Positions 1,846 to 50,705 of a stretch of DNA of 64,000 bases are shown one piece after another. The DNA is from Cupriavidus sp. MP-37 (GTDB lineage: Bacteria > Pseudomonadota > Gammaproteobacteria > Burkholderiales > Burkholderiaceae). The notes beneath the pieces were generated by a model. The model was not told where the DNA came from. It worked only from the letters and a program-made list of their open reading frames with translations, and ran no database searches. The stretch spans positions 1,054,001-1,118,000 of the forward strand of contig NZ_CP085345.1 in NCBI RefSeq assembly GCF_020618415.1, in the 5' to 3' direction. Every line of letters starts with the position of its first letter. Within the stretch, counting starts at the first letter, position 1. The position numbers and the translations under genes are program-made.

Positions 1846-1861
1846 TCGTCCGGGTGGACTA
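1846..1861 (-). promoter_or_regulatory. Putative LuxR-type operator, sulfotransferase operon
   Basis: Read toward the minus-strand gene the site is TAGTCC-ACCC-GGACGA, a 16-bp imperfect palindrome centred 69 bp upstream of the DUF1214 start. With its neighbour at 1891-1906 it forms a large inverted repeat across the divergent promoter region, including the flanks ATTTC. The same element recurs before other genes in this window. Confidence 0.6.
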
Positions 1862-1890
1862 GGAAATGCGCGCCGCCGCCCGCGATTTCT

Positions 1891-1906
1891 TAGTCCGCCC
1901 GGACGA
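1891..1906 (+). promoter_or_regulatory. Putative LuxR-type operator, cysD promoter
   Basis: TAGTCC-GCCC-GGACGA, mirror partner of the site at 1846-1861, centred about 100 bp upstream of cysD ATG. The two sites have opposite orientation, each pointing at its own gene. Confidence 0.6.
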
Positions 1907-1997
1907 AGTGGTGCAGGCCCGCGGCTCGCTACCTTCTGGCCATGCCCGACGGCCGCGACCACCCGGCGCGGCGCCGGCAAACCAAGAGGAGACCCCG

Positions 1998-2894
1998 ATG
2001 TTGACCCACCTGGAGCAACTGGAGGCGGAGAGCATCCACATCATGCGGGAGGTGGTGGCGGAGTGCGAGAACCCCGTCATGCTCTATTCGATCGGCAAGG
2101 ACAGCGCGGTGATGCTGCACCTGGCGATGAAGGCCTTCCATCCCGCGCGGCCGCCGTTCCCGCTGCTGCACGTCGATACCACGTGGAAGTTCCGCGAGAT
2201 GATCGCGTTCCGCGACCAGACCGCGGCCCGCCTCGGCCTGGACCTGCGCGTGCACATCAACCCCGAAGGGCTGGCACGCAACATCAGCCCGCACGAGCAC
2301 GGCTCAGCCGTCCATACCGACGTCTGGAAGACGCAGGGCCTGAAACAGGCGCTGGACCACTACGGCTTTGACGCGGCCTTTGGCGGCGCGCGCCGCGACG
2401 AGGAAAAGTCGCGCGCCAAGGAGCGCGTGTTCTCGGTGCGTACCGCGCAGCATCGCTGGGACCCCAAGATGCAGCGCCCCGAACTCTGGCGCCAGTACAA
2501 CACGCGCAAGCGCAAGGGCGAAAGCCTGCGCGTGTTCCCGCTGTCGAACTGGACCGAACTGGACATCTGGCAATACATCTACCTCAACCAAATCCCCATC
2601 GTGCCGCTCTACTTTGCGAAGGAGCGGCCAGTGGTGGAGCGCGACGGCACGCTGATCATGGTCGACGACGAACGCCTGCCGCTGCGCCCCGGAGAAACGC
2701 CGCAACTGCGCAAGGTGCGATTCCGCACCCTGGGCTGCTACCCGCTCACCGGCGCGATCGAGAGCGAGGCCGACACGCTCGGCGGCATCATCGAGGAAAT
2801 GCTGCGCGCGACCACGTCGGAGCGCCAGGGGCGGCTGATCGACAGCGATTCGGCCGGTTCGATGGAAAAGAAAAAGCAGGAGGGATACTTCTGA
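1998..2894 (+). CDS. cysD: Sulfate adenylyltransferase subunit 2
   Basis: 298 residues. Start ATG 1998 is preceded by AGAGGAG; the longer upstream reading is intergenic. CysD catalyses adenylation of sulfate by ATP to APS, driven by GTP hydrolysis in CysN. The PP-loop SIGKDS is at residues 31-36 and the C-terminus ends in the usual KKKQEGYF tail. The stop overlaps the cysNC start by one base. The gene faces away from the sulfotransferase operon and has no cysHIJ or cysG neighbours, so it probably serves sulfation rather than sulfate assimilation, like nodP. The latter point is inferred from context. Confidence 0.95.
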
Positions 2895-4816
2895 TGGACA
2901 CCCTGACCGACAACGCGCCGGCGATGGCGCAACCCGCCGGCACGCACGGCGATATCGCTCAATATCTTCGTGCGCAGCAAAGCAAGAGCCTGCTGCGCTT
3001 CATCACCTGCGGCAGCGTCGACGACGGCAAGAGCACGCTGATCGGCAGGCTGCTGTATGAGTCGAAGATGCTGTTCGAAGACCAGCTGGCCCAGCTCGAA
3101 GCCGATTCGAAGAAGATGGGCACGCAGGGCGAGAACCTCGACTTCGCGCTGCTGGTGGACGGCCTCGCCGCCGAGCGCGAACAGGGCATCACCATCGACG
3201 TCGCCTACCGCTTCTTCGCCACCGACAAGCGCAAGTTCATCGTCGCCGATACGCCGGGCCATGAACAGTACACCCGCAACATGGTCACCGGCGCCTCCAC
3301 CGCCGATCTCGCCATCCTGCTGGTCGATGCGCGCCGCGGCGTGCAGACCCAGACGCGCCGGCACAGCTACCTGGTGGCCACGCTCGGCATCCGGCGCGTG
3401 GTGCTGGCCGTCAACAAGCTCGACATGGTCGATTATTCGCGCGACGTCCATACGCGCATCGAGAAGGAATACCGCGAGTTCGCGCGGCAGATCGGGCTGA
3501 CCGATATCGTCTGCATCCCCATGTCGGCGCTGCGCGGCGACAACATCACCGCCCCCAGCGCCAATACACCGTGGTACCAGGGCCCGACGCTGATGGACCA
3601 CCTCGAGAGCGTGCCGATCGACCACGTGCCCGCGCAGGATGAGCCGTTCCGGCTGCCGGTGCAGTGGGTCAACCGCCCCAATCTCGATTTCCGCGGCTTT
3701 GCCGGCACCGTCAGCGCCGGCGCGATCCGGCGTGGCGACCGCGTGCGCGCCCTGCCCTCCGGCCGCGAAAGCCGCGTGACCGGCATCGTCGGCGCCAACG
3801 GCGAATGCGAGCACGCCATGCGCGGCCAGGCGGTGACGCTGACACTGGCGGACGAGATCGACGTCAGCCGCGGCGACGTGCTGGCCTGCGCCGAAGACCC
3901 GCCCGCGGTGGCCGACCAGTTCGAGGCCACGCTGGTCTGGATGAACGAGGACGCCATGCTGCCCGGACGCCCTTACCTGCTCAAGCTCGGCACCCGCACC
4001 GTGGGCGTGACCGTGGCGCAGCCCAAGTACAAGGTCAACGTCAACACGCTCGAGCACCTGGCCGCGCGCACGCTGCAGCTGAACGAGATCGGCGTCTGCA
4101 ACCTGCACCTGGACCAGGCGGTGGCGTTCGACCCGTACGCGCGCAACCGCGAGCTGGGCGGCTTTATCCTGATCGACCGCCTGACCAACAACACGGTCGG
4201 CGCCGGCATGCTGCACTTTGCGCTGCGCCGGGCGCAGAACGTGCACTGGCAGGCCATCGATGTCGACCGCCGCGCGCATGCCGCGCTCAAGCACCAGTCG
4301 CCGCGCATCGTCTGGTTCACCGGCCTCTCCGGCGCGGGCAAGTCCACCATTGCCAACCTGGTGGAAAAGCGCCTGCATGCGCTCGGCCACCACACCTACC
4401 TGCTCGACGGCGACAACGTGCGCCACGGCCTGAACAAGGACCTGGGCTTTTCCGAAGCGGACCGCATCGAGAACATCCGCCGCGTGGCGGAAGTCGCCAG
4501 GCTGATGCTGGATGCGGGGCTGATCGTGCTGGTGTCGTTCATCTCGCCGTTCCGCTCCGAACGCGAGATGGCGCGCGCGCTGGCCGGCGACGGCGAGTTC
4601 ATCGAAGTCTTCATCGACACGCCGCTGGCGGTGGCCGAGCAACGCGACCCCAAGGGCCTGTACCGCAAGGCGCGCCGCGGCGAACTGAAGAACTTCACCG
4701 GCATCGACTCGCCCTACGAGCCGCCCGAGCGACCCGAACTTCGCATCGACACCACCGCCGACACGGCCGAGCAGGCGGCGGAGCGGATCGTCGCATGGCT
4801 GCGGGATAGGCCTTAG
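2894..4816 (+). CDS. cysNC: Bifunctional sulfate adenylyltransferase GTPase subunit / APS kinase
   Basis: 640 residues, a CysN-CysC fusion of the NodQ type. The N-terminal EF-Tu-like GTPase shows GSVDDGKST at 40-48, DTPGHEQY near 119 and NKLDMVD near 184. The C-terminal APS kinase starts near 465 with the P-loop GLSGAGKS at about 476-483. With CysD it makes APS and then phosphorylates it to PAPS in one polypeptide. It starts inside the cysD stop codon. The fused kinase means the output is PAPS, the sulfotransferase donor, in keeping with the divergent sulfotransferase gene. Confidence 0.95.
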
Positions 4817-4829
4817 GCCGAATGGACGA
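4814..4829 (+). promoter_or_regulatory. Candidate LuxR-type operator upstream of the regulator gene
   Basis: TAGGCC-GAAT-GGACGA, one mismatch to the consensus of the other sites and oriented toward the LuxR gene. It overlaps the cysNC stop codon and lies 250 bp from the LuxR start, but about 120 bp of that distance is a REP pair. Weaker than the other sites because it touches coding sequence. Confidence 0.4.
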
Positions 4830-4920
4830 TGAGGCGGAGGGTGGGGTCGGTACGATGGGCAAAAGGGATTCTGCCGCGCCTGCCCCAGGGCCATCGCGCT
4901 TTCACGACCGACGGCGTACT

Positions 4921-5038
4921 CCCTCTCCCGCTTGCGGGAGAGGGTTGGGGTGAGGGCGGGAGCTTCTGCGAAGTCAAGCCTGCGGTATGCCACCGCCTGC
5001 CCTCACCCCCTGCCCCTCTCCCGCATGCGGGAGAGGGG
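4921..5038. repeat. REP palindrome pair
   Basis: Two hairpins, 4921-4944 and 5013-5038, each with the arm CCCTCTCCCGC and its complement, separated by a spacer with the GGTTGGGGTGAGGGCGGG / CCCTCACCCC pair. The same unit occurs at 44322, 45685, 56943-57877 and 59313. Here it sits between cysNC and the LuxR gene. Confidence 0.85.
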
Positions 5039-5071
5039 AGCAAACCGGCGGTCCACCGAAACGCCTCGATC

Positions 5072-6235
5072 ATGCTGCCAGCCGCCCTCCCAGCTTCCCT
5101 CCATGCCTCCCTCCCTGCGGCCGAACTCAGCGCCCTCCTCGCCCAGCTCTACCAGGGCCCGACCGAACCCGTCCCCTGGGCCAGCTTCCTCGAAACCCTG
5201 CGCCAGCGCCTTAACGCCACCTTCGTCACGCTGGTGCTGCGCCACCCCGCCACCGACCGCCCCGGCCTGATCGTCAACGCCTCCGACTACGGCCCCCACC
5301 TGCCCGGCGAGCCGTCATACAGCGAGCAATACTATGCGCTGTGCCCGTTCCTGGACCTGCGCCCCGACCGGCTCTTCAGCGCCGACGAACTGTTCGGCGA
5401 ACCCGGCTGGCTGGCGCATCCCTTCTACGCGCAATACCTGCAGCCGCTCGGCCTGCGCTACATCCTCGCAGCCAACCTGGTCACGCCGGACGGCGTCGAA
5501 TGCGCGCTGTTCATCAGCCGCACCACGGCAGGACAAGACTTCAGCAGCGCCGACAAGGCGTTGCTGCAGGACCTGCTGCCGCACCTGAAGCGCGCCGTCG
5601 ACCTGCACGCCGCGCTCGATGTGCTCGCCTCCGAACGTTCCCTCTACGCCGACGCGGTCGACCGCATGCAGGTAGGCACGGTCATCCTCGACGAGCACGG
5701 TCACTGCATCCGCACCAACGACGTCGCCGGCCGCCTGCTGCGCGCCGGCGACGGCCTCTACCTGGCAGACGGCGCGCTGCACGCGCATTGCCCGATGGAA
5801 AACCGCAGGTTCCGCAAGATCCTGGAGAGCGCCGCCCAGGCCCACGCGCTGGCCACGCGCAGCAGCGAAGTCACCACCCTCAGCCGACCCGCCGCGCCCA
5901 CGCCGCTCAGCGTGCTGGTGCGCCCCATCCCGCTCAGCTACCGCACCGAGGACAAGGCCCGCCGCCCCGCGGTAGCCGTCTTCATCCGCGATCCCGCGGG
6001 CTCGCCGCGCAACACCCACGCCAGCCTGCGCAAGCTGTTCCACCTGACGCCCACCGAGATCGAACTGGCCCTGCTGATGGTCGACGGCCTGACCCTGGAT
6101 GAAGCCGCGGTGCGGCTGGGGGTGAAGAAGAACACGGCGCGGGCGCATTTGCGGGGGATCTTTGCGAAGACGGGGGCGACGCGGCAGGCGGTATTGGTGA
6201 AGATGTTGTTGTCTAGTGTGGTGGGGATGGGGTGA
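5072..6235 (+). CDS. LuxR-family transcriptional regulator (TeiR/TesR-like size)
   Basis: 387 residues from ATG 5072; reading further upstream would translate the REP repeats, so that start is rejected. The C-terminal 60 residues (LTPTEIELALLMVDGLTLDE, then RLGVKKNTARAHLRGIF) form a GerE/LuxR helix-turn-helix. The long N-terminal part looks like a small-molecule sensor with a PAS-like stretch near residues 190-260 and has no receiver or autoinducer domain. Steroid regulators TeiR/TesR of Comamonas are LuxR-type of similar length (about 390). It is the best candidate for binding the 16-bp palindromes shared by the sulfation and catabolic genes; that link is inference. Confidence 0.88.
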   Translation: MLPAALPASLHASLPAAELSALLAQLYQGPTEPVPWASFLETLRQRLNATFVTLVLRHPATDRPGLIVNASDYGPHLPGEPSYSEQYYALCPFLDLRPDRLFSADELFGEPGWLAHPFYAQYLQPLGLRYILAANLVTPDGVECALFISRTTAGQDFSSADKALLQDLLPHLKRAVDLHAALDVLASERSLYADAVDRMQVGTVILDEHGHCIRTNDVAGRLLRAGDGLYLADGALHAHCPMENRRFRKILESAAQAHALATRSSEVTTLSRPAAPTPLSVLVRPIPLSYRTEDKARRPAVAVFIRDPAGSPRNTHASLRKLFHLTPTEIELALLMVDGLTLDEAAVRLGVKKNTARAHLRGIFAKTGATRQAVLVKMLLSSVVGMG

Positions 6236-6414
6236 GGGGCGGCGGGATTTTGGTTAGTGGGTCAAGCCACTCGACTGACTGCTCATGGTGGGATATGGAC
6301 CTGCCATCTACCTACAGACGCCGCGCAGCCCAGCAGACATTAGCCATTGGGCCGGTTGCAACGCAAGTTTGCCCCCGGCTTCACATCGCGCCCCGGATGA
6401 GCCAGCGTGGCAAT

Positions 6415-6801
6415 TCACTTCGCGACAAAGCGCGCCGTCACGGTCTTGCCGCCGGCAAACCTGATCGTCGCGACCAGCTTGGAGCCGGCTTTGAGCTGCA
6501 GCTTGTCAGCCGCCACCAGCGCGTTGTCCGTCCCCGGGGTTAGCGCCGTTTCCGTCTTCTGGGCGCCGGTCAGCACCGTCAGCTTGCCGCTGGCGCGAGC
6601 CACCGGCAGTTTCTTGTCATGGTCGTCGACATAGATGGTGACGGCGCCGTCCTTGTTGACCAGTTCGAACTGCAGGTCGCTGGCGGTCTGGACGATGCCG
6701 CCGTACTGAGCGGGCTTGGCGCCGTGGGCCATGGCCAGACCGGAGAGGCCGGACAGTGCGAGGCTGCCGGCAAACAACATGGCTGGAATCTGCTTCTTCA
6801 T
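6415..6801 (-). CDS. Small periplasmic protein of the RND efflux operon
   Basis: 128 residues with a clear Sec signal peptide (MKKQIPAMLFAGSLALSG, cleavage near AMA-H at 25-26). The mature part is a small beta-rich protein without Cys or Met clusters. A Shine-Dalgarno GGAG lies before ATG 6801. It is the last gene of the heavy-metal RND operon, 52 bp after the pump gene, where such operons often carry a small periplasmic accessory or metal-binding protein. I do not recognise the family. Confidence 0.75.
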   Translation of the reverse strand: MKKQIPAMLFAGSLALSGLSGLAMAHGAKPAQYGGIVQTASDLQFELVNKDGAVTIYVDDHDKKLPVARASGKLTVLTGAQKTETALTPGTDNALVAADKLQLKAGSKLVATIRFAGGKTVTARFVAK

Positions 6802-6853
6802 CGAATACTCCGTTGTTGCAGCGACTTGGGGGCGTCGCCACCAAAGCCCGTCA

Positions 6854-9800
6854 TCAGTACGCCTCGCCCGCCGGTTGCGACAGGATCCGCTCCAGCGGAC
6901 GGCGCCCGAACAGCCAGAACGCCAGCGGTGTCAGCACGGAATCCAGGATGGTCGAACTGACCAGCCCGCCGAAGATCACCACCGCCACCGGGTGCAGGAT
7001 TTCCTTGCCGGGCGCGTCGCCCGCGACCAGCAGCGGCACCAGCGCGAACGCCGCCACCAGTGCCGTCATCAGCACCGGCGTCAGCCGTTCCAGCGACCCC
7101 CGCACGATCATCGGGATGCCGAAGGTTTCCCCCTCCAGCCGGCACAGGTTGATGTAGTGGCTGACTTTCAGGATGCCGTTGCGCGTGGCGATGCCAGTCA
7201 GCGTGATGAAGCCGACCATGGACGCCACCGACAGGGCCAGGCCGCCGAGCCACATCGCGATCACGCTGCCGATCAATGCCAGCGGGATGTTCGCCATGAT
7301 GATCAGCGTCAGCGTCGCGGAACGATAGCGTGAGTACAGCACCAGGTAGATCAGCGCGAGCGACACCAGTGACAGCAGCACGATCCATTGCGTCGCCTGC
7401 TCTTGCGCCTGGAATTGCCCCTCGATGCTGACGAAGTAGCCGCCGGGCAGCCTGGCGCGCGCGACCGCGCCACGCACATCGTCGATGATCGTCGACATGT
7501 CCGAGCCATCGGTATTGGCATAGACCACGATGCGCCGGCGGCCGTTCTCGCGCCCGATCTGATTCGGGCCGTCGCCGTCCTCGACGTTGGCGATCGCCGA
7601 CAACGGCACCGCGCCACGTGGCGAATCCAGCATGACCCGGGACAGATCCTGCGGCGTCCGACCGGTATCGGGCAAGCGCACCACCAGGTCGTAGCGGCGC
7701 ACGCCTTCGATCAGTTGCGTCACCCGCGTGCCTTCCGACAAGGTCTGCAACGCTTTCAAGGCCTCGCCTGCCGGAATGCCATATTGCGCGGCCTTGCGGT
7801 AGTCGAGCCGCACATTGACTTGCGGAACCAGCACCTGCCTTTCGACCGTGATGTCGACGAGCCCTGGAATGGCGCCAAGCTGCGCCCGCACGTTCTCCGC
7901 CAGGCCGCGCAGCGTATCCAGGTCATCGCCATAGATCTTCAGCGCGATCTGGGCCCGCACGCCGGACAGCAGGTGATCCAGCCGGTGCGAAATCGGCTGG
8001 CCGATCGCCACCGATGCAGGCAGGCTGGCGAGCTGGGCGCGAATGGCAGCCATCACCTGTTCACGGCTGCGGTCAGAGCGCTTCAGGTCCACGTCGATCT
8101 CGGACGAATGCACGCCCTCGGCATGTTCGTCCAGTTCGGCGCGGCCGGTGCGCCGCCCGACTTGCGTGACCTCCGGCACCTGCCGGATCAGCGTTTCCGC
8201 CAGCGCGCCCATGCGGTTGGCTTCCGCCAGCGAAGTGCCGGGATTGAGCATCAACGACATGACCAGCGAACCTTCGTTGAAGGCCGGCAGGAAGGCGCGC
8301 GGCATCCATGGCACGGTGGCAGCCGCCAGCGCAACGGCGATGGCAGCCACGGCAAGTAGCGGCTTCGCCCGCGGAAATGACCAATGCAGGATGCTGGTAT
8401 CGGTCCGCTTGAGCCACGCCACCAGCGGGCTGTCCGGATGTTCCAGCCGCTTCATCCGCGGCAACAGGTAGTACGACAGGACCGGGGTCACCGTCATCGA
8501 CACCAGCATCGAAGCCAGGATCGACACGATGTAGGCGATGCCCAGCGGCGCGAACAGGCGCCCTTCGATACCCGGCAGCGCAAACAGCGGCACGAACACC
8601 AGCACCACCACCAGCGTGGCATAGACGATGCCGGAGCGGACTTCGACCGAAGCACGCCAGATCACCTCCAGCACTGGCGGTGGGTTCTCTTTGCCAGCGC
8701 GCTGCCTGAGCCGGCGCAGGATGTTTTCGACGTCGACCACCGCGTCGTCGACCAGCTCGCCGATGGCAATCGCCAGGCCGCCCAGCGTCATCACGTTGAT
8801 CGACTGTCCCAGCAGGCGGAAGGCCAGCGCGGTGACGGCCAGCGACAGCGGGATCGCCACCAGCGAGATCGCGGTGGTGCGCGCGCTCAGCAGGAAGGCG
8901 AACAGGATCACGGTCACCATGATGGCGCCGTCGCGCAGCGCTTCGACGACATTGCCGATCGAGGCTTCGATAAAGTCAGCCTGGCGGAACAGCACCTGCG
9001 GTGCGGACAGACCCGCCGGCAATCCCTGCTTCAGTTCGCCCAGCGCCGCTTCCAGGTCACGTGTCAGGCGTACCGTGTCGGCCGCGGGCTGCTTCTGCAC
9101 GCTGACGATTACGGCCGGCTTGCCATTGAAGCCAGCGTCGCCGCGCTTGAGCGCGGGGGCATAGCGCACGCCGGCCACCTGCTCCAGCAGCACCGGCATG
9201 CCTTCCTTGTAGGCAACGGCCAGACCTTTCAGGTCGTCAAGCCGGTTGGTGCGCCCAAGGTTGCGGATCAGGTATTCGCGGCCGTTCAGGTCGATGAAGC
9301 CGCCACTGGTATTGGCCGCGAAGTCGCGCAACGCGGCTTCGACCTGCGGCAGCGCCACGCCGAACTGTGCCATCCTCGCGGTGTCCGGCTCCACCCGCAG
9401 CTGGCGCACCTCGCCGCCGATCGGAATGACCTGCGACACGCCGGCCACCGACAGCAGGCGCGGCCGCAGCACGAAGTCGGCATACTCGCGCGCCTGCATC
9501 GGACTGGCCTTGGCCGGATCGATCGGCAACGCGATCAGCATGATCTCACCCATGATCGACGAGACCGGGCCGAGCATGGGCGTCAGCGCGCCTGGCAACT
9601 GCTCCTTCACCAGCGCCAGCCGCTCTGACACCAGCTGGCGGTTGCGGTAGATATCGCTGCCCCAGTCGAATTCGGCATACACGATGGAGAGGCCGACTCC
9701 CGACACCGAGCGCACACGCGTGACACCGGGCATGCCGTTCAGCGCGGTCTCGATCGGGAACGACACCAGCAGCTCCACTTCCTGCGGCGCCATGCCGCCG

Positions 9801-9958
9801 GCTTCGGTGATCACGGTCACCAGCGGCTTGTTGAGATCCGGGAAGACATCCACCGGCGTGCGCCAGGCGGTCAAGGCGCCGTAGGCCATCAGGATGAAGG
9901 CAACGGCGAGGACCAGCAGCCGATTGGCGAGGCTGGCGCGAACCATCCAGTTGAACAT
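6854..9958 (-). CDS. Heavy-metal efflux RND inner-membrane pump (CzcA/HME family)
   Basis: 1034 residues, full length for an HME-RND proton antiporter. TM1 follows the short N-terminus (residues 13-30), TM4 carries [14 protein letters not shown] with the paired acidic residues of the proton relay, and the C-terminal TM block is intact. At the three positions that form the Cu(I)/Ag(I) methionine triad of CusA, this protein has Met (SLVMSL), Glu (HSSEID) and His (RLDHLL), so it is probably not a copper/silver pump. It is co-oriented with its adaptor (9 bp gap) and outer-membrane factor. The metal is not inferable from sequence alone. Confidence 0.93.
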
Positions 9959-9967
9959 GCGCGCCCC

Positions 9968-42411: not shown

Positions 42412-42469
42412 TTGCAGCTCCTTTCAGGTTAGGTTGGCGAGCCGCAGCGGAACTCGCGTAGCCACGTTG

Positions 42470-42485: not shown

Positions 42486-42554
42486 GCCCGCAGCAAACGT
42501 GCAAGTCCCTGAAAAGGCGAGATATTCGGAAAGTCCACCAGGGCCGGCGGCGAA

Positions 42555-42610
42555 CCGCGCTTCGCGCGGGGCCGGCTGGCGGGACGGGATCAGGCGAAGC
42601 GTGCTTCGCC
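42555..42610. promoter_or_regulatory. Palindromes as candidate activator sites
   Basis: CCGCGC-TTC-GCGCGG (42555-42569) and GGCGAAGC-GT-GCTTCGCC (42593-42610) share the core GCTTCGC and lie about 85-140 bp upstream of the sigma-54 promoter, the usual place for enhancer-binding-protein sites. Confidence 0.4.
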
Positions 42611-42670
42611 GCCCGGGCGGCAGTTTGCAAGCCGGGATCGGCGGGGTAATGCCGTTCAGTTAACCACCGT

Positions 42671-42737
42671 CGTTCCCGCGCAGGCGGGAACCCAGTGACT
42701 TTGAAAGACGCTGGATTCCCGCCTGCGCGGGAATGAC
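42671..42737. repeat. Intergenic palindromic repeat
   Basis: Two long arms, CGTTCCCGCGCAGGCGGGAA and its partner at 42711-42737, around a short spacer. This is the dispersed 'GCAGGCGGGAA' element common in beta- and gammaproteobacterial intergenic DNA. It may also act as terminator for the lipoprotein gene side. The rest of 42412-42783 holds the sigma-54 promoter and palindromes only. Confidence 0.7.
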
Positions 42738-42783
42738 CGGTAGTGCGGATGGCGGCAGCAGATCCTGCCGCCATCCGCTCAGC

Positions 42784-44070: not shown

Positions 44071-44321
44071 GGGCTCCCCTTCCTCGGACTCTGCGGTCGT
44101 AAAGGTCGACGGCTTGGAAGGCGCCGTCGATGAACCCAATCTAGGTGGCGGAATTTGAATGGAAAATCGGTTCTATGGATGAGCCGGCAGATCGCCAGGG
44201 CGCAGCCCCCGCCAAAATCATCGGCAAAAGTATGTGTCCGGGATGAAACGCTGCGGGGGACGTGTCGCCGCACGCGTTGTCGCCGGCGATCTCACTGGCT
44301 TTTTTTGACCGCTTGTTTTCT

Positions 44322-44428
44322 CCCCTCTCCCGCATTCGGGAGGGCGGGGGTGAGGGCCGGCGGTGGCAATAGCGACGCCCTTCACTTCATTGACTCTCCC
44401 GCCCTCACCCCAGCCCTCTCCCGCAAGC
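44322..44428. repeat. REP unit, left half, interrupted by the IS481-type element
   Basis: CCCCTCTCCCGC hairpin (degenerate) plus spacer and the second hairpin arm up to GCAAGC. The unit continues at 45685-45785 after the insertion sequence. The rest of 44071-44321 shows no gene. Confidence 0.85.
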
Positions 44429-45684
44429 TGTATGGACCGGGGACATGGGTAACACATGTGCCAGGACATGGGTAACAGTCCAGTCTCCAGTTTAATTGGC
44501 CTCCTGTAGGTCTATTGTGGCCACCTTCTGATGGCAGAAGTAGACATCAAAGGTGCCGTCCAAATCCACGCGAGGGCGCAGCGCTACGGGCGTTCCGACC
44601 AAGGCTCGTCCGACCCGGAACGTCTTTCCTCGGAAGCAGATGCGCCCGCCGTCGCCTACCTTTCGCACGATGTCATCGCTGCCGTACTCGATAGGCGGGA
44701 GCTCGCGCGGCATCGTCCGTGGACTAGGCGCATAGCGGCTTGCGGGTGTCTCCATATCCAGGGCGTGGTGTGGGCGCTTGAAGTTGTACACGTGGCGCCA
44801 ATGGCTGAAGTGATGCTGCGCATCGTCCAGATCCCGGAAGCGCTGGTTGGCCAACAGCTCTGCCTGCATGGTTCGATGGAAGCGCTCGTCCTTACCGTTG
44901 GTCTGCGGATGGCGAGGTCGGCTATGACTGAGCCGCACCCCCAGGCGGATCAGCCAAGCACCCAACGTGGTAAGTGCACGGGGCACTGGAGAACCCCAGG
45001 GCGGGCCGTTGTCTGCATTGATGCGCTCGGGCAGCCCATAGCGCGCAAAAGCCTTCTCTAACGCTTCCTGTACGGATTCAAACTGTTCGTTGCCCAAGGC
45101 CCTGAGCAGCACATTGAACCGGGAGTGATCGTCCAAGACCGTGAGTGGGTGGCACCGCTGCGTGTCGGTAGCGAAGTGGCCTTTAAAGTCAATTTGCCAT
45201 AGTGCATTGGGCCGGTCGTGCTCGAAGCGCTGCCAGGCTGTAGCGGCCGAGCTGGCGGCCGGATCGATCAAGCCATGGCGGCGCAGCACCCAATTGACTG
45301 TGCTCGGGGCGATTTGGACGCAGTGGTCACGCTCCAGTACGCGTGCGATCTTGCGGGCGCCCCAGGCCGAATGTTCGGCTCGGATCGCTAGCACGCCCTC
45401 TTCGACGGCAGCTGGAGTTCGGCCGGGAGAGCTATGTGGCCGCCGAGTTCGGTCGTCCAGATCCTCTCGGTTCAACCACTTGTAACCGGTCTTGCGACTG
45501 ATGCAGAAGCGGCGGCAAAGCTCCGCAATATTGGCGTCCGCCTGGCGTGCCAGGCGGACGAACTCTTCTCTTTGCTGCTTCACGGTGTTTTGGCTCCAGG
45601 GCAACGTTGTCCTCCCGCTGACTAAGCGGGAAAAGTGTTACCCATGTCCTGGCACACCTGTTACCTATGTCCCCGGTCTATACA
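44429..45684. mobile_element. IS481-family insertion sequence
   Basis: 1256 bp bounded by inverted ends TGTATGGACCGGGGACATGG and, read from the right, TGTATAGACCGGGGACATAG. It is flanked by the direct repeat GCAAGC (44423-44428 and 45685-45690), a 6-bp target duplication taken from the loop of a REP hairpin. Encodes one transposase. Confidence 0.9.
44492..45604 (-). CDS. IS481-family DDE transposase
   Basis: 370 residues. N-terminal helix-turn-helix (LCRRFCISRKTGYKWLNRED), then rve-type core: WQIDFKGHF (first Asp), INADNGPPWG (second Asp) and NGKDERFHRTM (Glu). Length and order fit IS481 elements. Intact reading frame; the element may be active. Confidence 0.93.
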   Translation of the reverse strand: MPWSQNTVKQQREEFVRLARQADANIAELCRRFCISRKTGYKWLNREDLDDRTRRPHSSPGRTPAAVEEGVLAIRAEHSAWGARKIARVLERDHCVQIAPSTVNWVLRRHGLIDPAASSAATAWQRFEHDRPNALWQIDFKGHFATDTQRCHPLTVLDDHSRFNVLLRALGNEQFESVQEALEKAFARYGLPERINADNGPPWGSPVPRALTTLGAWLIRLGVRLSHSRPRHPQTNGKDERFHRTMQAELLANQRFRDLDDAQHHFSHWRHVYNFKRPHHALDMETPASRYAPSPRTMPRELPPIEYGSDDIVRKVGDGGRICFRGKTFRVGRALVGTPVALRPRVDLDGTFDVYFCHQKVATIDLQEAN

Positions 45685-45785
45685 GCAAGCGGGAGAGGGA
45701 GTACACAAACGGGAGTTGGAAAGCTCGAGGAAATGATGTCGCCGCGGGTGTGCTCCCCTCTCCCGCTTGCGGGAGAGGGGCGGGG
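45685..45785. repeat. REP unit, right half after the insertion sequence
   Basis: Completes the interrupted hairpin (GCAAGCGGGAGAGGG) and carries a second one (CCCTCTCCCGC with its complement) near 45763-45780. Between here and 46098 lie the terminator hairpin and the operator pair; no convincing gene. Confidence 0.85.
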
Positions 45786-45865
45786 GTGAGGGCCGCGCCT
45801 CCACGAAGTCCACCGCATCAATCCGTGCGCGCCCACATCATCCTCCGGAATTCGGCGATGACCCC

Positions 45866-45895
45866 AAAAAAAGCCGGCCATCGCCGATGGCCGGC
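45866..45895 (-). terminator. Rho-independent terminator on the minus strand
   Basis: Read on the minus strand: GCCGGCCA stem, short loop, TGGCCGGC, then seven T. An 8-10 bp GC stem and clean T-run make this the best intrinsic terminator in the window. No annotated minus-strand gene ends just before it. Confidence 0.75.
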
Positions 45896-46003
45896 ACCAA
45901 GCTCACAGCAGATGGAGAATGCGGCCCCGCCGCGCATCGCCGCCGCCGGACAGCGCGACCGCGGGACCGGGACTCAATGTGCATCACGGCGATGACGTCG
46001 CCT

Positions 46004-46033
46004 TCGTCCACCCGGACTCGTCCGTTCGGGGTA
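46004..46033 (+). promoter_or_regulatory. Two overlapping LuxR-type operator candidates, SRPBCC promoter
   Basis: 46004-46019 reads TCGTCC-ACCC-GGACTC (on the minus strand GAGTCC-N4-GGACGA). 46018-46033 reads TCGTCC-GTTC-GGGGTA. They share two bases. The second is centred about 72 bp before ATG 46098. Confidence 0.45.
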
Positions 46034-46097
46034 TGCGGGGCGCCGGCGGATGGCTCTAGTGTTTCCCTTCCCAATGACTTTGATGAAGGAGGAGACC

Positions 46098-46577
46098 ATG
46101 GCCAAGGCCGAGAATCTGGTGACGTCGATCCGGGTAGAGATCGATGCGCCGGTGGCGCTGGTGTGGGAAGTGCTGACCGACTTTGCGCGCTACAACGAAT
46201 GGAACACGTTCTGTCCCGGGCTGGAAACCACCGGGCGGCTCGGCGACATGGTGCACATGCAGGTGCGCATTCCCGGCACCGACCAGGTGATCCCGGTCAA
46301 CGAGTACCTGGTGGCGTGGGAGCCGGAGCGGCTGCTGTCGTGGGAGCAGCGTCCGACCGACGCGAACAAGGACGCCGCGCGGCGCGACCAGTACCTGGAA
46401 GCCATCGGTCCGGGACGCACGCGCTACTTCACCACCGACCTGTTCCTGGGCCTGAACGCCGAGACCATCATGCGCGAGCACGGTGCCTGGGTGAAACAGG
46501 GCTTCGATCAGGTGGCACGCGACGTCAAGGCGCGCGCGGAAGCGCTGCACGCGCAACTGCAGGCCGGCCGCGGCTGA
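46098..46577 (+). CDS. SRPBCC-family protein (polyketide cyclase-like)
   Basis: 159 residues; AAGGAGGAGACC precedes ATG 46098. SIRVEIDAPVALVWEVLTDF and YNEWNTFCPGLE are the START/SRPBCC hydrophobic-pocket fold. Members bind or transform bulky hydrophobic ligands. It carries its own operator pair and faces the rest of the catabolic island; a role with the same substrate is inferred. Confidence 0.85.
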   Translation: MAKAENLVTSIRVEIDAPVALVWEVLTDFARYNEWNTFCPGLETTGRLGDMVHMQVRIPGTDQVIPVNEYLVAWEPERLLSWEQRPTDANKDAARRDQYLEAIGPGRTRYFTTDLFLGLNAETIMREHGAWVKQGFDQVARDVKARAEALHAQLQAGRG

Positions 46578-46583
46578 CCCCGT

Positions 46584-46615
46584 GCCGGTTCGGCCCGGAC
46601 ACCGGGCCGACCGGC
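46584..46615 (+). terminator. Hairpin after the SRPBCC gene
   Basis: GCCGGTTCGGCCCGG-ACA-CCGGGCCGACCGGC, a 14-bp stem with one bulge, lies 7 bp after the stop and between convergent genes. No T-run. Confidence 0.45.
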
Positions 46616-46625
46616 CTTACGGTGC

Positions 46626-46856
46626 TTACTGTGGCGGCCGCTGGCTCAGCACCACCAGCGCCGCGGCACCGCGGCTGCGCACGCAGGCGTCGTCGCAGCG
46701 CTCCATCGCGGCCTGGGCGGCGGGCAGCGTCATGGCGGGGAGCGCAAGCGCGGGCCGGTCATCCTGGCCGGCATCGACGGCCAGCCCCCAGCCCACGCCC
46801 ATGGCAGCGCCTGCCCCGATCAGGCCCGCCGCCCAACGAAATCCGAGCCGCTTCAT
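46626..46856 (-). CDS. Small membrane/exported protein of unknown function
   Basis: 76 residues from ATG 46856, preceded by GGAGGAGACAGCG. One hydrophobic segment (WAAGLIGAGAAMGVGWGLAV) serves as signal or anchor, then a short periplasmic tail with CDDAC near 54-58. It has its own LuxR-type operator (46931-46946), so it is a separately controlled member of the regulon. Family unknown. Confidence 0.6.
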   Translation of the reverse strand: MKRLGFRWAAGLIGAGAAMGVGWGLAVDAGQDDRPALALPAMTLPAAQAAMERCDDACVRSRGAAALVVLSQRPPQ

Positions 46857-46930
46857 CGCTGTCTCCTCCGCTTGCCCTGTTGGTATCCGGGCGATTGAGA
46901 GCATCGTAGTCAGCGGCGGGCCGGACCTCT

Positions 46931-46946
46931 TCGTCCGAGCAGACTA
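46931..46946 (-). promoter_or_regulatory. LuxR-type operator, small membrane protein promoter
   Basis: Read toward the gene: TAGTCT-GCTC-GGACGA, one mismatch in the palindrome, followed by AGAGG as at other sites. Centred 82 bp from ATG 46856 and overlapping the stop codon of the TetR gene. Confidence 0.55.
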
Positions 46947-47579
46947 AGGGGTATCCCGCATCAGCGCGGGGTCGGAAGTGGCGTGGGATCGACAAGAAGC
47001 GCGCGCGGCGGGCAGCACCGCATGGTGCTGGTACAGCCGGGCCAGCGCCGCGGCGCTGCCGGACAGCCCGGCGGGCGCCAGGTGCATTGCATGCGCGCCC
47101 AGCAGGCCCCACAGGTGCGCCAGCAGCAGGCCGGCCAGATCCGGGCTCGGCAACAGCATGGCGAACGTGACGCGCAGCGAATCGACGCCGCGCAGCACGC
47201 GCTCGCGCAGCGGGCACAGTTCGCAGGCTTCGCCGCACTTGTGCTGCAACAGTGCGGCAATCAGGCTGACATGGCGCGCCAGTTCGTCGCCGTGCAGGAA
47301 GGCCTGCAACGCCTGCGCCAATGCGTCCGGCGCGGCGCCAGCCTGTGCCAGCGGTGCAAGCCGCGCGGCGAAGTCGGCTTCGGCGCAGGACAGCAGCGCG
47401 CCCAGCAGGTCGGCGCGGGAATGGAAGTGTCCGTAGACGGCGCCGCGCGTCATGCCGATGGCGCGCGCCACGTCGTCGACGGTGACGCAATGCAGGCCGC
47501 GCTGGCGGATCAGCCGCTGCGCGCTGGCCAGGATGCGCGCGCGCGTCACGGCGGCATCCTCGCGGGTGTGGCGGGCCAT
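46944..47579 (-). CDS. TetR-family regulator
   Basis: 211 residues from ATG 47579. N-terminal helix-turn-helix TVDDVARAIGMTRGAVYGHF is typical of the AcrR/TtgR branch. The ligand domain has a Cys cluster (KCGEACELCPLRE near 113-125), which could sense metal or redox or be structural. Last gene of the hydrolase-SDR-isomerase operon, 13 bp after the isomerase, so it may give feedback control. Confidence 0.9.
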   Translation of the reverse strand: MARHTREDAAVTRARILASAQRLIRQRGLHCVTVDDVARAIGMTRGAVYGHFHSRADLLGALLSCAEADFAARLAPLAQAGAAPDALAQALQAFLHGDELARHVSLIAALLQHKCGEACELCPLRERVLRGVDSLRVTFAMLLPSPDLAGLLLAHLWGLLGAHAMHLAPAGLSGSAAALARLYQHHAVLPAARASCRSHATSDPALMRDTP

Positions 47580-47592
47580 CGGCGCGGCGCGC

Positions 47593-47979
47593 TTACACGA
47601 AATGCACGTCGTCCGGGCCCCAGTGGGCGCGCATGCTGCGGATGCGGCCGTCATCGCCGAAGCTCATGATGTCGGTCACGTCGATACGCGCCGGCCGCCC
47701 TTCCAGCCGCGCATGCACGGCGAAGGTCAGCGCGGCGGCGTTGCCGTGCGAGCCGCGCGGCGGCGCCACCACTTCCAGCCGCGCGCCCAGCGCGGTGGCG
47801 TGCTGGTAGAACGCCAGGATGGCCGGCTTGCCGGTGATCGGCTGCGCGCCGACCGGGTCTTCCACGGTGGCGTCGTCGGCGTAGAGCGCGGCAACGCCCT
47901 GCGCGTCGCCGGCATTGAAGCGCTCGACATAGGCGAGCAGCGTCGCCTTCATCGCGGCGCTATCGGGTCCTTCGGCCAT
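47593..47979 (-). CDS. Ketosteroid isomerase-like (SnoaL/NTF2 fold) protein
   Basis: 128 residues. The N-terminal half closely follows Comamonas testosteroni delta5-3-ketosteroid isomerase (FNAGDAQGVAALYADDATVE, DPVG). The three active-site residues have counterparts: Tyr17 (Tyr14), Asp41 (Asp38) and Asp103 (Asp99). KSI moves a double bond beside a ketone in steroids. Many NTF2-fold proteins are not isomerases, but conservation of all three residues makes isomerase chemistry likely. Substrate may be a steroid or another fused-ring enone. Confidence 0.78.
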   Translation of the reverse strand: MAEGPDSAAMKATLLAYVERFNAGDAQGVAALYADDATVEDPVGAQPITGKPAILAFYQHATALGARLEVVAPPRGSHGNAAALTFAVHARLEGRPARIDVTDIMSFGDDGRIRSMRAHWGPDDVHFV

Positions 47980-48000
47980 GGGGTCTCCTGGTCGTGGGTT

Positions 48001-48786
48001 TCAGCGTGCGGTGTAGCCGCCGTCGATCACCAGCTCGGCGCCGGTGACGTAGCGTCCCGCGTCGGACACCAGATACAGGATGCCCGCCGCGATGTCGCGT
48101 GGCTGTCCGACCTTGCCCGCTGGCGTGAGGCCGCCCAGGTAGTCGAACAGCCCTTCGCCCTGCCCCGAGGCCTGCGCCACGTGTTCCAGCATGGGCGTGC
48201 GGATAAAGCCGGGATGGATCGAATTGGCGCGGATGTTCTTGCCGGCGTACAGCAGCGCATCGGTCTTGGCCATCATCCGCACCGCCGCCTTCGACGCGTG
48301 ATAGGGCGGCACGTCCGGCCCGCCGGCGATGCCGTACATCGACGACACATTGACGATGGCGCCGCCGCCGGCGCGCTCCATGTGGGGGATAGCATGCTTG
48401 GTGCACAGGAAGGTGCCGGTCACGTTCACCGCCATCACCTGCTGCCATTGCTCCAGCGCCAGTTCATGGGTGGGCGCATTGGGCCCTTCGATGCCGGCGT
48501 TGTTCACCAGGATGCCGACGCCGCCGAAACGCTGCGCGATCTCGGTGAACACGCGCGCCACCTCGTCTTCGCGGGTGACGTCGAGCTTCCAGAATGCGGC
48601 CTCGCCGCCGGCCGCGCAGATCGCGTCGGCCGTGGCCTTGCCGTCCGCTTCCAGCACGTCGAGCACGGCGACCCTGGCGCCAGCCGCCGCGAGCATGCGC
48701 GCGGTCTCCGCACCGATGCCGCGCGCGGCACCGGTGATGGCCGCCACCTTGCCACGCAGGCCGAACAGGTCATACGGGTATTCCAT
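48001..48786 (-). CDS. Short-chain dehydrogenase/reductase
   Basis: 261 residues. NAD site TGAARGIG near 18-25, NNAG near 94, catalytic Ser in VSSMYG, and Tyr-x-x-x-Lys as YHASK. Asp after beta-2 (VLDVLEAD) favours NAD(H). Classical SDR of the hydroxysteroid/alcohol type. AAGGAGACACC precedes the start. Middle gene of the operon with the hydrolase and isomerase-like protein. Confidence 0.92.
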   Translation of the reverse strand: MEYPYDLFGLRGKVAAITGAARGIGAETARMLAAAGARVAVLDVLEADGKATADAICAAGGEAAFWKLDVTREDEVARVFTEIAQRFGGVGILVNNAGIEGPNAPTHELALEQWQQVMAVNVTGTFLCTKHAIPHMERAGGGAIVNVSSMYGIAGGPDVPPYHASKAAVRMMAKTDALLYAGKNIRANSIHPGFIRTPMLEHVAQASGQGEGLFDYLGGLTPAGKVGQPRDIAAGILYLVSDAGRYVTGAELVIDGGYTAR

Positions 48787-48823
48787 GGTGTCTCCTTGAT
48801 AGTTATGTTGTGGGCGGAGGCAA

Positions 48824-49714
48824 TTATGCCGCGCCGCCCGGCGCGGTATCGGCCAGGAAGCCCAGGCATTCGCGGTTGAAATACGCCGCGTGCTCGACCA
48901 TCACCCAGTGGCCGCAGCGGTTGATCATGACAAAGCGCGCGTCGGCGCAGCCGCTCAGGAATTTCGCCGCGCTCGAGGCGGGATTGAACCGGTCCTCGGT
49001 GCCCCAGAAGCCCAGCACCGGGCAGCGGATCTCGCCCAGCCGCGCGGTCAGGTTGGGCACCTTCATCGTCGCCAGCACCTCGCGCGGCTGCTCGCGGCAC
49101 ACCGCCATGCGCTCGTCGACCAGCGCGTCGGTGACCAGGCTGGCGTCGTGCACGAGCAGTTGCAGCAGCTGGCGCATGGTGTCGGGGTTCATATGGCCGC
49201 CGGTGAACAGCGACACCATGCGCTGGATGCCGGGCATCTCGAAATAGGTCTCGCGCTCTTCGACGCCGCCGGGCGCCATCATCACCAGGCGGCTGACATG
49301 CTCGGGGTAATCCAGCGCGTATTGCAGCGCGATGGCGCCGCCCAGCGAATTGCCCACCAGCACGCAGCGCGGCAGTTCCAGCGCCAGCAGCTGCTCGCGC
49401 AGCGCGGCGACGAAGAAGTCCAGCGTGTACTCGACGTCGTCCGGCTTGGACGACAGCCCGTAGCCCGGCAGGTCCACCACCACGGTACGGAAACCCGCCG
49501 CGGCAAACGCCGGCACGTTATGGCGGAAGTTGCTGTGGCCGCTCGCGCCCGGTCCGCTGCCGTGGATGAAGACCACCGGCTCGCCGGCGCCGGCGTCCAG
49601 GCAGTGCAGCCGCAGGCCCGTGGCGGTGGTGATGAAGCGCCCCACCGGCAGGTTGGGATGGAGCGAGGCGGTGGCGATGGGGGTCGAGGACGTGTGCTGC
49701 GAGGTAGCGGACAT
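48824..49714 (-). CDS. Meta-cleavage product C-C hydrolase (BphD/MhpC/TesD family)
   Basis: 296 residues. HGSGPGASGHSNF is the oxyanion signature of C-C bond hydrolases that split ring-fission products; nucleophile Ser123 in GNSLGG, Asp in GTEDRF and His in CGHWVMVE complete the triad. It releases a 2-hydroxydienoate, the substrate of the hydratase at 52418. First gene of the leftward operon, 62 bp from an operator. The matching extradiol dioxygenase is not in the window. Confidence 0.92.
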   Translation of the reverse strand: MSATSQHTSSTPIATASLHPNLPVGRFITTATGLRLHCLDAGAGEPVVFIHGSGPGASGHSNFRHNVPAFAAAGFRTVVVDLPGYGLSSKPDDVEYTLDFFVAALREQLLALELPRCVLVGNSLGGAIALQYALDYPEHVSRLVMMAPGGVEERETYFEMPGIQRMVSLFTGGHMNPDTMRQLLQLLVHDASLVTDALVDERMAVCREQPREVLATMKVPNLTARLGEIRCPVLGFWGTEDRFNPASSAAKFLSGCADARFVMINRCGHWVMVEHAAYFNRECLGFLADTAPGGAA

Positions 49715-49768
49715 GAGGGCGTCTCCCTTGGTTTGCCAGCATCTTGCGCAGCGCCATCGCCGCGGGCA

Positions 49769-49784
49769 TCGTTCATTCGGACTA
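49769..49784 (-). promoter_or_regulatory. LuxR-type operator between hydrolase and SDR genes
   Basis: Read toward the hydrolase: TAGTCC-GAAT-GAACGA. Centred 62 bp before the hydrolase start and 66 bp before the divergent SDR start, so it could serve both. Confidence 0.55.
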
Positions 49785-49842
49785 CGAGCCGGCGGGCCAC
49801 TTCTCCTACGATGGGCGCTCCATGCATCAGAGGGGGACGTTC

Positions 49843-50640
49843 ATGACAGGATTCGCGGGATTCGATTACACCGGCCAGACCGTGCTGGTCACCGGCGGCA
49901 TGCGCGGCATCGGCCGCGCCATCAGCGAGGCCTTCCTGCGCGCCGGCGCGCAGGTGTTCGTGTGCGGCCGCACCGCGCCCGCCGACGACAGCGAACTGCC
50001 CAGCGCGAACGGCCGCAGCGCCCGCTTTATCGCCGCGGACATCCGCGACCTGGAACAGGTCGACGCCATGCTGGCACTGATCGCGCAGGCCAGCGCGACG
50101 CTGGATGTAGTGGTCCACAACGCCGGCGGCGCGCCGTTCGCGCTGGTCGCGGATGCGTCGCCGCGTCTGCTGGAATCGGTAATCCGGCTCAACCTGGTGG
50201 CGCCGCTGCAGCTGGCCCAGCGCTGCAATGCGCGCATGCAGCAGCAGGCCGGCGGCGGCACCCAGCTGTTCGTCGGCAGCGTCAGCGCGCTGCGCCCATC
50301 GCCCGGCACCGCCGCCTACGGCGCCGCCAAGGCGGGCATCCTCAATGCGGTGCGCACGCTCGCGGTGGAATGGGCGCCGCGCGTGCGCGTGGCCGCGGTC
50401 AGCCCGGGCATGGTGCTGACCGAGACCTCGCAGCAGCAGCACTACGGCGACCCGGCGGCGTTGCTCAACATGGCGGCGACGGTGCCGCTCGGCCGGCTGG
50501 CGCTGCCGGACGACATCGCCGCCGCCTGCCTGTTCCTGGCGTCGCCGCAGGCCTCGTACATAAGCGGCGCCAACCTCGTGATCGACGGCGGCGGCGAGCG
50601 GCCGGCCTTTCTCGACGCGGCCTCGGTGAATCGCACCTGA
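49843..50640 (+). CDS. Short-chain dehydrogenase/reductase
   Basis: 265 residues from ATG 49843 (AGGGGGACG upstream). TGGMRGIGRA is the nucleotide site, NAGG near 88, Ser in VGSVSAL and YGAAK the catalytic Tyr/Lys. CGRT after beta-2 may favour NADP(H). Divergent from the hydrolase operon and probably the second hydroxyl/ketone oxidoreductase of the same pathway. Confidence 0.92.
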   Translation: MTGFAGFDYTGQTVLVTGGMRGIGRAISEAFLRAGAQVFVCGRTAPADDSELPSANGRSARFIAADIRDLEQVDAMLALIAQASATLDVVVHNAGGAPFALVADASPRLLESVIRLNLVAPLQLAQRCNARMQQQAGGGTQLFVGSVSALRPSPGTAAYGAAKAGILNAVRTLAVEWAPRVRVAAVSPGMVLTETSQQQHYGDPAALLNMAATVPLGRLALPDDIAAACLFLASPQASYISGANLVIDGGGERPAFLDAASVNRT

Positions 50641-50689
50641 GTCGCACCTGAACCGCACCCGAGCAGCTGCTTCCCGTAGGGAAACCGCC

Positions 50690-50705
50690 TAGTCCGTTCT
50701 GCCGA
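50690..50705 (+). promoter_or_regulatory. LuxR-type operator, DUF1302 operon
   Basis: TAGTCC-GTTC-TGCCGA; first half-site perfect, second weak. Centred 105 bp before ATG 50803 in the gap after the SDR gene. Confidence 0.5.

Follow-up and report, generated by a model that had tools for sequence, protein, structure and literature searches.

A conserved palindrome ahead of sulfation and steroid degradation genes in Cupriavidus sp. MP-37, a predicted operator of TesR/TeiR-type LuxR regulators

In Cupriavidus sp. MP-37, an imperfect palindrome, TAGTCC-N4-GGACGA (the box), lies ahead of genes for sulfate activation and sulfotransfer and again ahead of an island of catabolic genes about 40 kb away, which raises the question of what regulator and what pathway could join the two. 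The box was recognized in a 64-kb stretch of DNA (the window; G000:C2:1054001-1118000) on the 2.50-Mb replicon of this two-contig, 6.11-Mb genome. The original prediction, that one LuxR-type regulon connects sulfation dependent on 3'-phosphoadenosine 5'-phosphosulfate (PAPS) with ring catabolism, was supported by the comparative evidence on the box. The catabolic genes belong to the 9,10-seco pathway of steroid degradation, most of which is encoded upstream of the window. It is very probable, judging from sequence comparison, that the box is the operator of a TesR/TeiR-type LuxR steroid regulon and that a self-contained PAPS sulfation module belongs to this regulon.

Occurrence and promoter position of the box

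All the sites claimed for the window were recovered by a motif scan (Table 1), in which mismatches were scored on the best strand unless gene orientation is stated. The whole-genome scan at up to one mismatch returned 19 rows, corresponding to 18 positions in 6.11 Mb. Six of these were within the window and nine inside a single 95-kb stretch, C2:1.01-1.105 Mb (binomial P 2e-12, with the limits of the stretch drawn after the hits were known). Measured as such clustering, the frequency of the motif in the genome agreed with the original prediction. The four exact matches (C2:1013307, 1032596, 1055846 and 1055891) all fell in this stretch; two of them lie outside the window and are therefore independent of the motif definition, in which none of the three stretch sites beyond the window (C2:1013307, 1032596 and 1044315) took part. 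Genes were called with a simple codon-usage caller in 184 kb (the window plus 80 kb on its upstream and 40 kb on its downstream side), giving 144 genes, and the stretch sites fell outside them; Pfam annotation was obtained for 50 proteins and NCBIfam annotation for ten. A position weight matrix scan placed the box 70 bp upstream of the KshA-like, 107 bp upstream of the TesB-like, 75 bp upstream of the TesA2-like and 88 bp upstream of a DUF1329 gene (2 mismatches), and a further box with 2 mismatches preceded a luciferase-like gene.

Two measures were set aside. The window count at up to three mismatches (74 against 35.6 ± 7.6 in shuffled sequence, largest 55) is inflated by double hits of the palindrome. 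Overlap with open reading frames (ORFs) did not separate true from chance sites: the nine positions outside the stretch were overlapped by ORFs of 612-2915 bp, but six cluster sites were likewise overlapped, by ORFs of 1188-1680 bp. On the other replicon, a one-mismatch box, TAGTCTCGCCGGACGA (C1:2446295-2446310, locus L035), was found 73 bp ahead of a 405-aa thiolase ORF, with a TACGAT at longer spacing; the thiolase is a possible distant member of the regulon.

The position of the box relative to a -10-like element was rigid. In all seven window promoters a TANNNT hexamer began 21-23 bases past the box (Table 1), and at that offset the tesB- and tesA2-like promoters had weaker hexamers, AAGAAT and AAACAT. 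When 23 sites in four genomes were checked by name, NANNNT was present at offset 21-23 in 22, including four of four in Comamonas testosteroni; the exception was the luciferase-like gene of B. cenocepacia. An unsupervised search of 86 non-redundant promoters, taken from the 80 cross-genus loci described below, placed a -10-like element at this offset in 84, with A at position 2 in 95%, T at position 6 in 98% and T at position 1 in 59%. The alignment carried 5.76 bits per site, whereas 15 shuffled sets averaged 3.45 and reached at most 3.62. The G two bases past the box was retained in 181 of the 200 sites scored, close relatives contributing many of them. As transcription starts about 7 bases past a -10 element and the -10 stands at a fixed offset, the centre of the box would lie near -42, a class II position. 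The operator position fits class II activation by a LuxR-type protein, with start sites that are predicted.

The details of three window promoters deserve comment. The luxR1 box had been described as displaced from its gene by an insertion of repetitive extragenic palindromic (REP) sequence. This was borne out: REP-type repeats, recognized by reading, lie between the box and the start codon, and across 22 Cupriavidus promoters the distance from box to start ranged from 41 to 295 bp, with a spacer of variable length and both ends retained. A uniform orientation of box to gene had also been claimed, and here the site at 49769 differs, since it is divergent. Its better -10 (TACGAT) faces the plus-strand short-chain dehydrogenase (SDR) gene at 49843, in which direction the box has 3 mismatches, and towards the hydrolase gene it has 1 mismatch and a CAAGAT. 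NANNNT elements in both directions were also seen in three other loci (L085, L088 and L089); elsewhere the box stood ahead of the hydrolase (TesD) gene in 3 of 4 loci and ahead of the SDR gene in 0 of 3. For the overlapping pair ahead of the SRPBCC gene, the overlap was confirmed but the better-matching strand points away from the gene; the gene-oriented box at 46018 has 4 mismatches, yet is followed by TAGTGT.

Conservation of the box and its putative regulators

Conservation in orthologous promoters had been named beforehand as a test of the box, and it was found both in Cupriavidus and across a wider set of loci. In Cupriavidus (Cupriavidus sp. MP-37 included; up to 2 mismatches; loci below 75% identity or with less than 100 bp upstream left out), 28 of 29 kshA promoters (22 exact) and all 20 tesB promoters, every one exact and taken from 20 of the 28 genomes with TesB, carried the box. 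So did 22 of 23 luxR1 promoters, scored within 320 bp. The cross-genus set consisted of the best 80 of 108 relatives matched by the DUF1214 protein in a scan of genome contigs; a box with up to 2 mismatches was sought 20-170 bp upstream, and gene matches below 40% identity or starting past residue 25 were left out. The box was present ahead of the genes for DUF1214 (59/80), CysD (48/73) and LuxR1 (43/51), and ahead of those for DUF1329 (10/12), TesA2 (9/9), the luciferase-like protein (9/9), TesB (3/3), KstD (2/2), DUF1302 (3/3), TesD (3/4) and SDR1038 (3/9). It thus precedes sulfation genes from Burkholderia through Pseudomonas. Genes internal to operons served as negative controls, with a box ahead of the sulfotransferase in 0 of 80, SDR1052 in 0 of 77, CysNC in 0 of 60 and the fourth module gene in 1 of 52 loci; none was found ahead of SDR1048 (0/10), SDR1032 (0/4) or FadD3 (0/3). 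Permuted patterns gave mean counts of 0-0.9 and maxima of up to 57, the high maxima coming from permutations only one or two positions away from the real pattern, and the reversed pattern gave 0-7. Among 60 Cupriavidus genomes, the exact box followed by NG occurred 4.07 times per genome in the 28 with TesB and 0.44 times in the 32 without it (reversed control, 0.93 and 1.25).

Two LuxR-type proteins, LuxR1 in the window and LuxR2 upstream of it, are encoded near the kshA-, tesB-, kstD- and tesA2-like genes. The recognition helix NTARAHLR is identical in both and in a TeiR-like protein of C. testosteroni ATCC 11996. The latter ends the tesB cluster, is taken as TeiR by its position only and is 39% identical to LuxR2; the best identity of a C. 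testosteroni LuxR homolog to LuxR1 was 37%. The model of LuxR1 had a predicted local distance difference test score (pLDDT) of 77, and its Foldseek matches (phytochromes, VqmA and El222) support a GAF/PAS plus LuxR layout and indicate no ligand. In the genus sample, members of the LuxR family (E ≤1e-30) were found in exactly the 28 genomes with TesB. Three kshA loci (L260, L261 and L262, in genomes G007, G037 and G006) have an exact box, a best LuxR match of 51-52% and no LuxR1 ortholog, so that LuxR2-type proteins, too, probably act through this box. The regulon proposed in the original prediction thus stood, but its attribution solely to the LuxR protein encoded at 5072-6235 was not established, given the shared helix of LuxR2 and the exact kshA box in these three genomes.

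The regulon resembles the TesR/TeiR regulon of C. testosteroni in its LuxR-type positive regulator, in the homology of regulator and targets and in the box and its -10 spacing. In ATCC 11996, the homologs of tesB and tesA2 each have a box with 1 mismatch ahead of them, and a divergent unit with the tesD-G homologs has one with 2 mismatches; all three are followed by NANNNT at offset 22. Five of the 17 one-mismatch positions of this genome are on the 239-kb contig that carries the tesB cluster. According to one report, the tesB-tesR, tesA1-tesG and tesA2-ORF18 units of strain TA441 need TesR (PMC6895838), so that the dependence was reported for TA441 and the box compared in ATCC 11996. The two regulons differ in that, in the portions of that literature available, neither a binding site nor sulfation targets are named, and in that two paralogs are present here. 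In Pseudomonas stutzeri Chol1, which has two TeiR-like genes, deletion of one delays cholate degradation, as excerpted from a review (PMC8399759). Growth tests in C. necator ATCC 17699 confirmed steroid metabolism with testosterone (excerpt of PMC4810484), and a table for C. testosteroni JLU460ET gives steroid-induced values for hsaC, kshA and a LuxR gene (PMC10637631, in part). The KstR and KstR2 regulons of actinobacteria likewise place 9,10-seco steroid catabolism under dedicated regulators, which are there TetR-family repressors as opposed to the putative LuxR activator here (PMC6678751, in part).

The sulfation module and the steroid gene cluster

By Pfam and NCBIfam annotation, the region upstream of the window contains a gene cluster for 9,10-seco steroid degradation. 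The marker set is present as homologs (KshA, KstD, HsaA/TesA2, HsaC/TesB and HsaD/TesD); the best NCBIfam matches, to HsaC, HsaA, HsaD and a 3-oxosteroid dehydrogenase, were all below the curated cut-offs. The upstream cluster also contains genes for coenzyme A transferase, acyl-coenzyme A dehydrogenase, thiolase and ligase functions and for DUF1329, and the window island contributes TesD-, TesE-, TesF- and TesG-like genes and DUF1302.

The genes for CysD-CysNC, the sulfotransferase, DUF1214 and an SDR form, with a fourth gene, a set that recurs from Burkholderia to Pseudomonas; the fourth gene and LuxR1 are missing from part of the sulfation loci. The genes for PAPS synthesis (CysD, CysN and adenosine 5'-phosphosulfate (APS) kinase) are present; the name CysD was assigned because the PAPS_reduct protein adjoins CysNC. 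The sulfotransferase motifs GxPRTGTT and HRxPxxxIPS, which we take to be PAPS-binding, were invariant in 17 of 17 aligned homologs. The fourth gene encodes a DHH-fold protein, whose model (pLDDT 92.7) gave as best Foldseek match a DHH-family phosphatase of 3'-phosphoadenosine 5'-phosphate (PAP), PDB 8A8K (E 2e-12, 13% identity). DHH and DHHA1 were matched below the Pfam cut-offs only, and a profile search of the PDB returned a single meaningless match (E 0.63). Judged from the model, the protein may be a PAP phosphatase: its fold is like that of 8A8K and of NrnA-type phosphatases, at 13% identity and with RecJ nearly as close, and the activity is predicted. An enzyme for PAP removal encoded next to a sulfotransferase would speak for genuine PAPS-dependent sulfation, and the module as encoded looks like a complete PAPS cycle of CysD, CysNC, sulfotransferase and possible PAP phosphatase. 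Neither the DUF1214 protein nor the fourth gene product obtained a name from NCBIfam; a close relative of the former is a solved structure labelled uncharacterized (PDB 6ANS).

The module is a single operon behind an extra gene in Comamonas and in part of Pseudomonas, and an Inositol_P (CysQ-like) gene lies beside it in Comamonas. In C. testosteroni locus L152 (5152-5925 and 6043-7020) the operon opens with a winged-helix-like gene (sub-threshold Pfam matches), and the CysQ-like gene lies opposite, across a variant of the box. Two matches each of CysD, DUF1214, the sulfotransferase and the SDR were observed in Cupriavidus sp. UYMMa02A (L151), representing either a duplicated module or an assembly artefact.

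The distribution of the module was followed by DUF1214 (E ≤1e-80) and that of the steroid pathway by TesB (E ≤1e-60) in 299 genomes of the family. DUF1214 was found in 43 genomes and TesB in 52; all 43 DUF1214 carriers have TesB (three with a DUF1214 match of just 53-55%), and DUF1214 was absent from all 247 genomes without TesB. The co-occurrence includes genus g11, where the two markers lie on different contigs in 23 of 24 genomes. The hypergeometric P is too small because of shared ancestry, and variation within genera is the sounder evidence. In the genus of P. citronellolis (25 genomes), the five DUF1214 carriers were all among the 12 TesB carriers.

In gut Bacteroides, the sterol sulfotransferase cluster has a PAPS-dependent sulfotransferase adjoining PAPS synthesis genes. 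The module here differs in that it sits in a catabolic steroid regulon, with DUF1214, an SDR and a DHH-fold protein. No description of a steroid-linked sulfation step was found in the open literature searched on sulfotransferases with steroids or DUF1214, where the matches listed dealt mostly with human enzymes. The parts of the steroid-regulation literature examined name neither the box nor the sulfation genes, the letters of the box themselves not having been used as a query.

The island and the sulfation genes would once have been neighbours, with the interval 6.24-45.97 kb of the window a later break, to judge from the arrangement in relatives. The C. necator A5-1 block that corresponds to window positions 45974-51559 stops 74 bp short of the LuxR1 match; the LuxR1 and SRPBCC matches are 198 bp apart. 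These two matches are separated by 72-80 bp in two Ralstonia and by 2.6 kb in C. lacunae, where a DUF1329 gene lies in between. A break at the end of LuxR1 is common to relatives, as the match to the window stops at 6237-6243 in four loci (L079, L080, L081 and L086). An rve integrase-type transposase gene (44492-45604) and an IS110-type transposase gene (58211-59230) lie near the island edges. Behind the TesEFG genes is a tandem array (56927-57877) in which a 176-bp unit containing REP-like sequence is present in 5.4 copies (95% matching). The 76-aa protein of the island, previously called a small membrane protein, had no Pfam match.

Table 1. Boxes and genes of the predicted regulon. Positions are those of the window unless prefixed C2.
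Feature	Position	Strand	Promoter or evidence
Box TAGTCCACCCGGACGA, ahead of DUF1214-sulfotransferase operon	1846-1861	-	0 mismatches; -10 TATCGT 1822-1817
Box TAGTCCGCCCGGACGA, ahead of cysD	1891-1906	+	0 mismatches; -10 TACCTT 1930-1935
Box TAGGCCGAATGGACGA, ahead of luxR1	4814-4829	+	1 mismatch; -10 TACGAT 4851-4856
Overlapping box pair, ahead of SRPBCC gene	46004-46033	+	best strand: 46004 (-) 1 mismatch, 46018 (-) 2 mismatches; -10 TAGTGT 46057-46062
Box TAGTCTGCTCGGACGA, ahead of 76-aa protein gene	46931-46946	-	1 mismatch; -10 TACGAT 46908-46903
Box between divergent SDR and TesD-like hydrolase genes	49769-49784		1 mismatch (-); SDR (+) TACGAT 49807-49812; hydrolase (-) CAAGAT
Box TAGTCCGTTCTGCCGA, ahead of DUF1302 gene	50690-50705	+	2 mismatches; -10 TACGCT 50728-50733
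Sulfotransferase (Sulfotransfer_3)	1-667, runs past window edge (C2:1053489-1054667)	-	Pfam
DUF1214 protein	664-1785	-	Pfam; relative of PDB 6ANS
CysD-type ATP sulfurylase subunit	1998-2894	+	PAPS_reduct domain
CysNC, GTPase subunit fused to APS kinase	2894-4816	+	Pfam
LuxR1, GAF/PAS-like sensor and LuxR-type helix-turn-helix, TesR/TeiR-like	5072-6235	+	Pfam, helix comparison, structure model
SRPBCC (Polyketide_cyc2) protein	46098-46577	+	Pfam
76-aa protein	46626-46856	-	
SnoaL-like protein	47593-47979	-	Pfam
SDR	48001-48786	-	Pfam
TesD/HsaD-like meta-cleavage hydrolase	48824-49714	-	best NCBIfam match HsaD, under curated cut-off
SDR	49843-50640	+	Pfam
DUF1302 protein	50803-52365	+	Pfam
TesE-, TesF-, TesG-like hydratase, acetaldehyde dehydrogenase, aldolase	52418-55170	+	57, 76, 83% identity to C. 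testosteroni homologs
KshA-type Rieske oxygenase	C2:1012168-1013244		KshA_C Pfam above cut-off
TesB/HsaC-like dioxygenase	C2:1031600-1032496		
KstD-like protein	C2:1041279-1043030		
TesA2/HsaA-like protein	C2:1043054-1044247		
LuxR2	C2:1046587-1047774		
Fourth module gene, DHH-fold protein	C2:1051040-1052056 (L045 17040-18056)		fold model; missed at Pfam gathering scores

Alternatives and predicted mechanism

Several observations weigh against a steroid regulon that includes the sulfation module and is read through this box. Binding to the box and expression of these genes are inferred from sequence. The LuxR2 gene had no good upstream box (0 of 14 loci), nor did SDR1103 (0 of 3); the SRPBCC gene had one in 19 of 65 loci only and Pseudomonas kshA in 2 of 6. 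The sulfation operons of Comamonas and of part of Pseudomonas carry a variant, TGGTCC-N4-GG[C/T]CTA, which has at least 3 mismatches in operon orientation; it was present in 19 of 23 loci with NANNNT at offset 22, the variant pattern having been chosen post hoc. Genome scans of C. testosteroni and Hydrocarboniphaga gave one-mismatch positions and no exact match. Genome G039 has an exact kshA box (L250) but, at the cut-offs used, neither a LuxR nor a TesB homolog, which is either a partial cluster or an assembly gap. As regards the module, DUF1214 was missing at the cut-off from 9 of the 52 family genomes with TesB, and RecJ nucleases matched the fold of the fourth gene product almost as well as 8A8K did. 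Finally, TeiR has been described as a polar membrane-located kinase (PMC6678751, in part), and a membrane kinase would need no DNA box. A conserved operator is more readily reconciled with a direct transcription factor than with a membrane kinase.

The other explanations of the box differ in what they leave unexplained. Chance palindromes in G+C-rich DNA, selected by eye, could account for most of the 74 window matches at up to three mismatches, which are largely meaningless, but the clustering in the genome, the controls and the conservation across genera contradict this explanation and make it extremely improbable. A repressor operator, for instance of the TetR protein encoded at 46944-47579, would suit the presence of that gene within the island and the precedent of KstR and KstR2, the TetR repressors that govern actinobacterial steroid genes (PMC6678751, in part). 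The box stands on the upstream side of the -10, at the rigid class II distance, and in the genus the distribution of LuxR matches that of TesB exactly, although the relatives were searched for LuxR and not for TetR; a repressor is accordingly regarded as very unlikely. It is also rather unlikely that LuxR1 alone uses the box and that LuxR2 runs the steroid genes through another signal. LuxR1 does adjoin the module and has its own box in nearly all Cupriavidus promoters, but the exact kshA boxes of L260, L261 and L262 occur despite the modest best LuxR match there, C. testosteroni has boxes with only distant LuxR homologs, and the recognition helices are identical.

A weightier alternative concerns the module rather than the box. 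The module may be co-regulated with steroid genes and act outside steroid chemistry; its substrate might then be a lipid, signal or toxic phenol, sulfated in a protective or envelope response for as long as steroids are present. This agrees with the incomplete overlap of the markers (DUF1214 in 43 of 52 genomes with TesB) and with the genus g11, in which DUF1214 and TesB are on separate contigs in 23 of 24 genomes, including all nine assemblies of 4 contigs or fewer. Against it, DUF1214 never occurred without TesB in the family sample, the module bears the same box as the steroid genes, and its companions (an SDR, an SRPBCC protein and, in Comamonas, a pair of SnoaL-like proteins) suggest work on a ring compound. 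We consider another substrate possible but doubtful.

For a TesR/TeiR-type regulon that includes the module, we infer direct binding, activation, an inducer and a steroid or steroid intermediate as the sulfate acceptor, and the following mechanism is proposed. A dimer of a GAF/PAS-LuxR protein (LuxR1 and/or LuxR2) would bind TAGTCC-N4-GGACGA-NG centred at about -42, where it would replace the -35 element. On sensing a steroid or steroid metabolite, it would promote sigma-70 transcription from the TANNNT-like -10 located 21-23 bp further on. The genes for ring cleavage (kshA, tesB, tesA2, tesD and others) would be switched on and, simultaneously, CysD-CysNC for PAPS synthesis and the sulfotransferase with its DUF1214 and SDR partners, with the DHH-fold protein probably removing PAP. 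More speculatively, and with considerable reservation, aerobic steroid degradation in many beta- and gammaproteobacteria might include a sulfation branch under this newly defined TesR/TeiR operator, in which the PAPS cycle sulfates a steroid hydroxyl and DUF1214 and the SDR process the sulfate ester, for example by using the sulfate as a leaving group to remove the hydroxyl.

The box is a directly testable cis element that would let steroid regulons be read from genomes, and it argues that TesR/TeiR-type proteins are ordinary DNA-binding activators. It is also a pointer to sulfation as a step linked with steroid catabolism, and it offers a candidate role for DUF1214.

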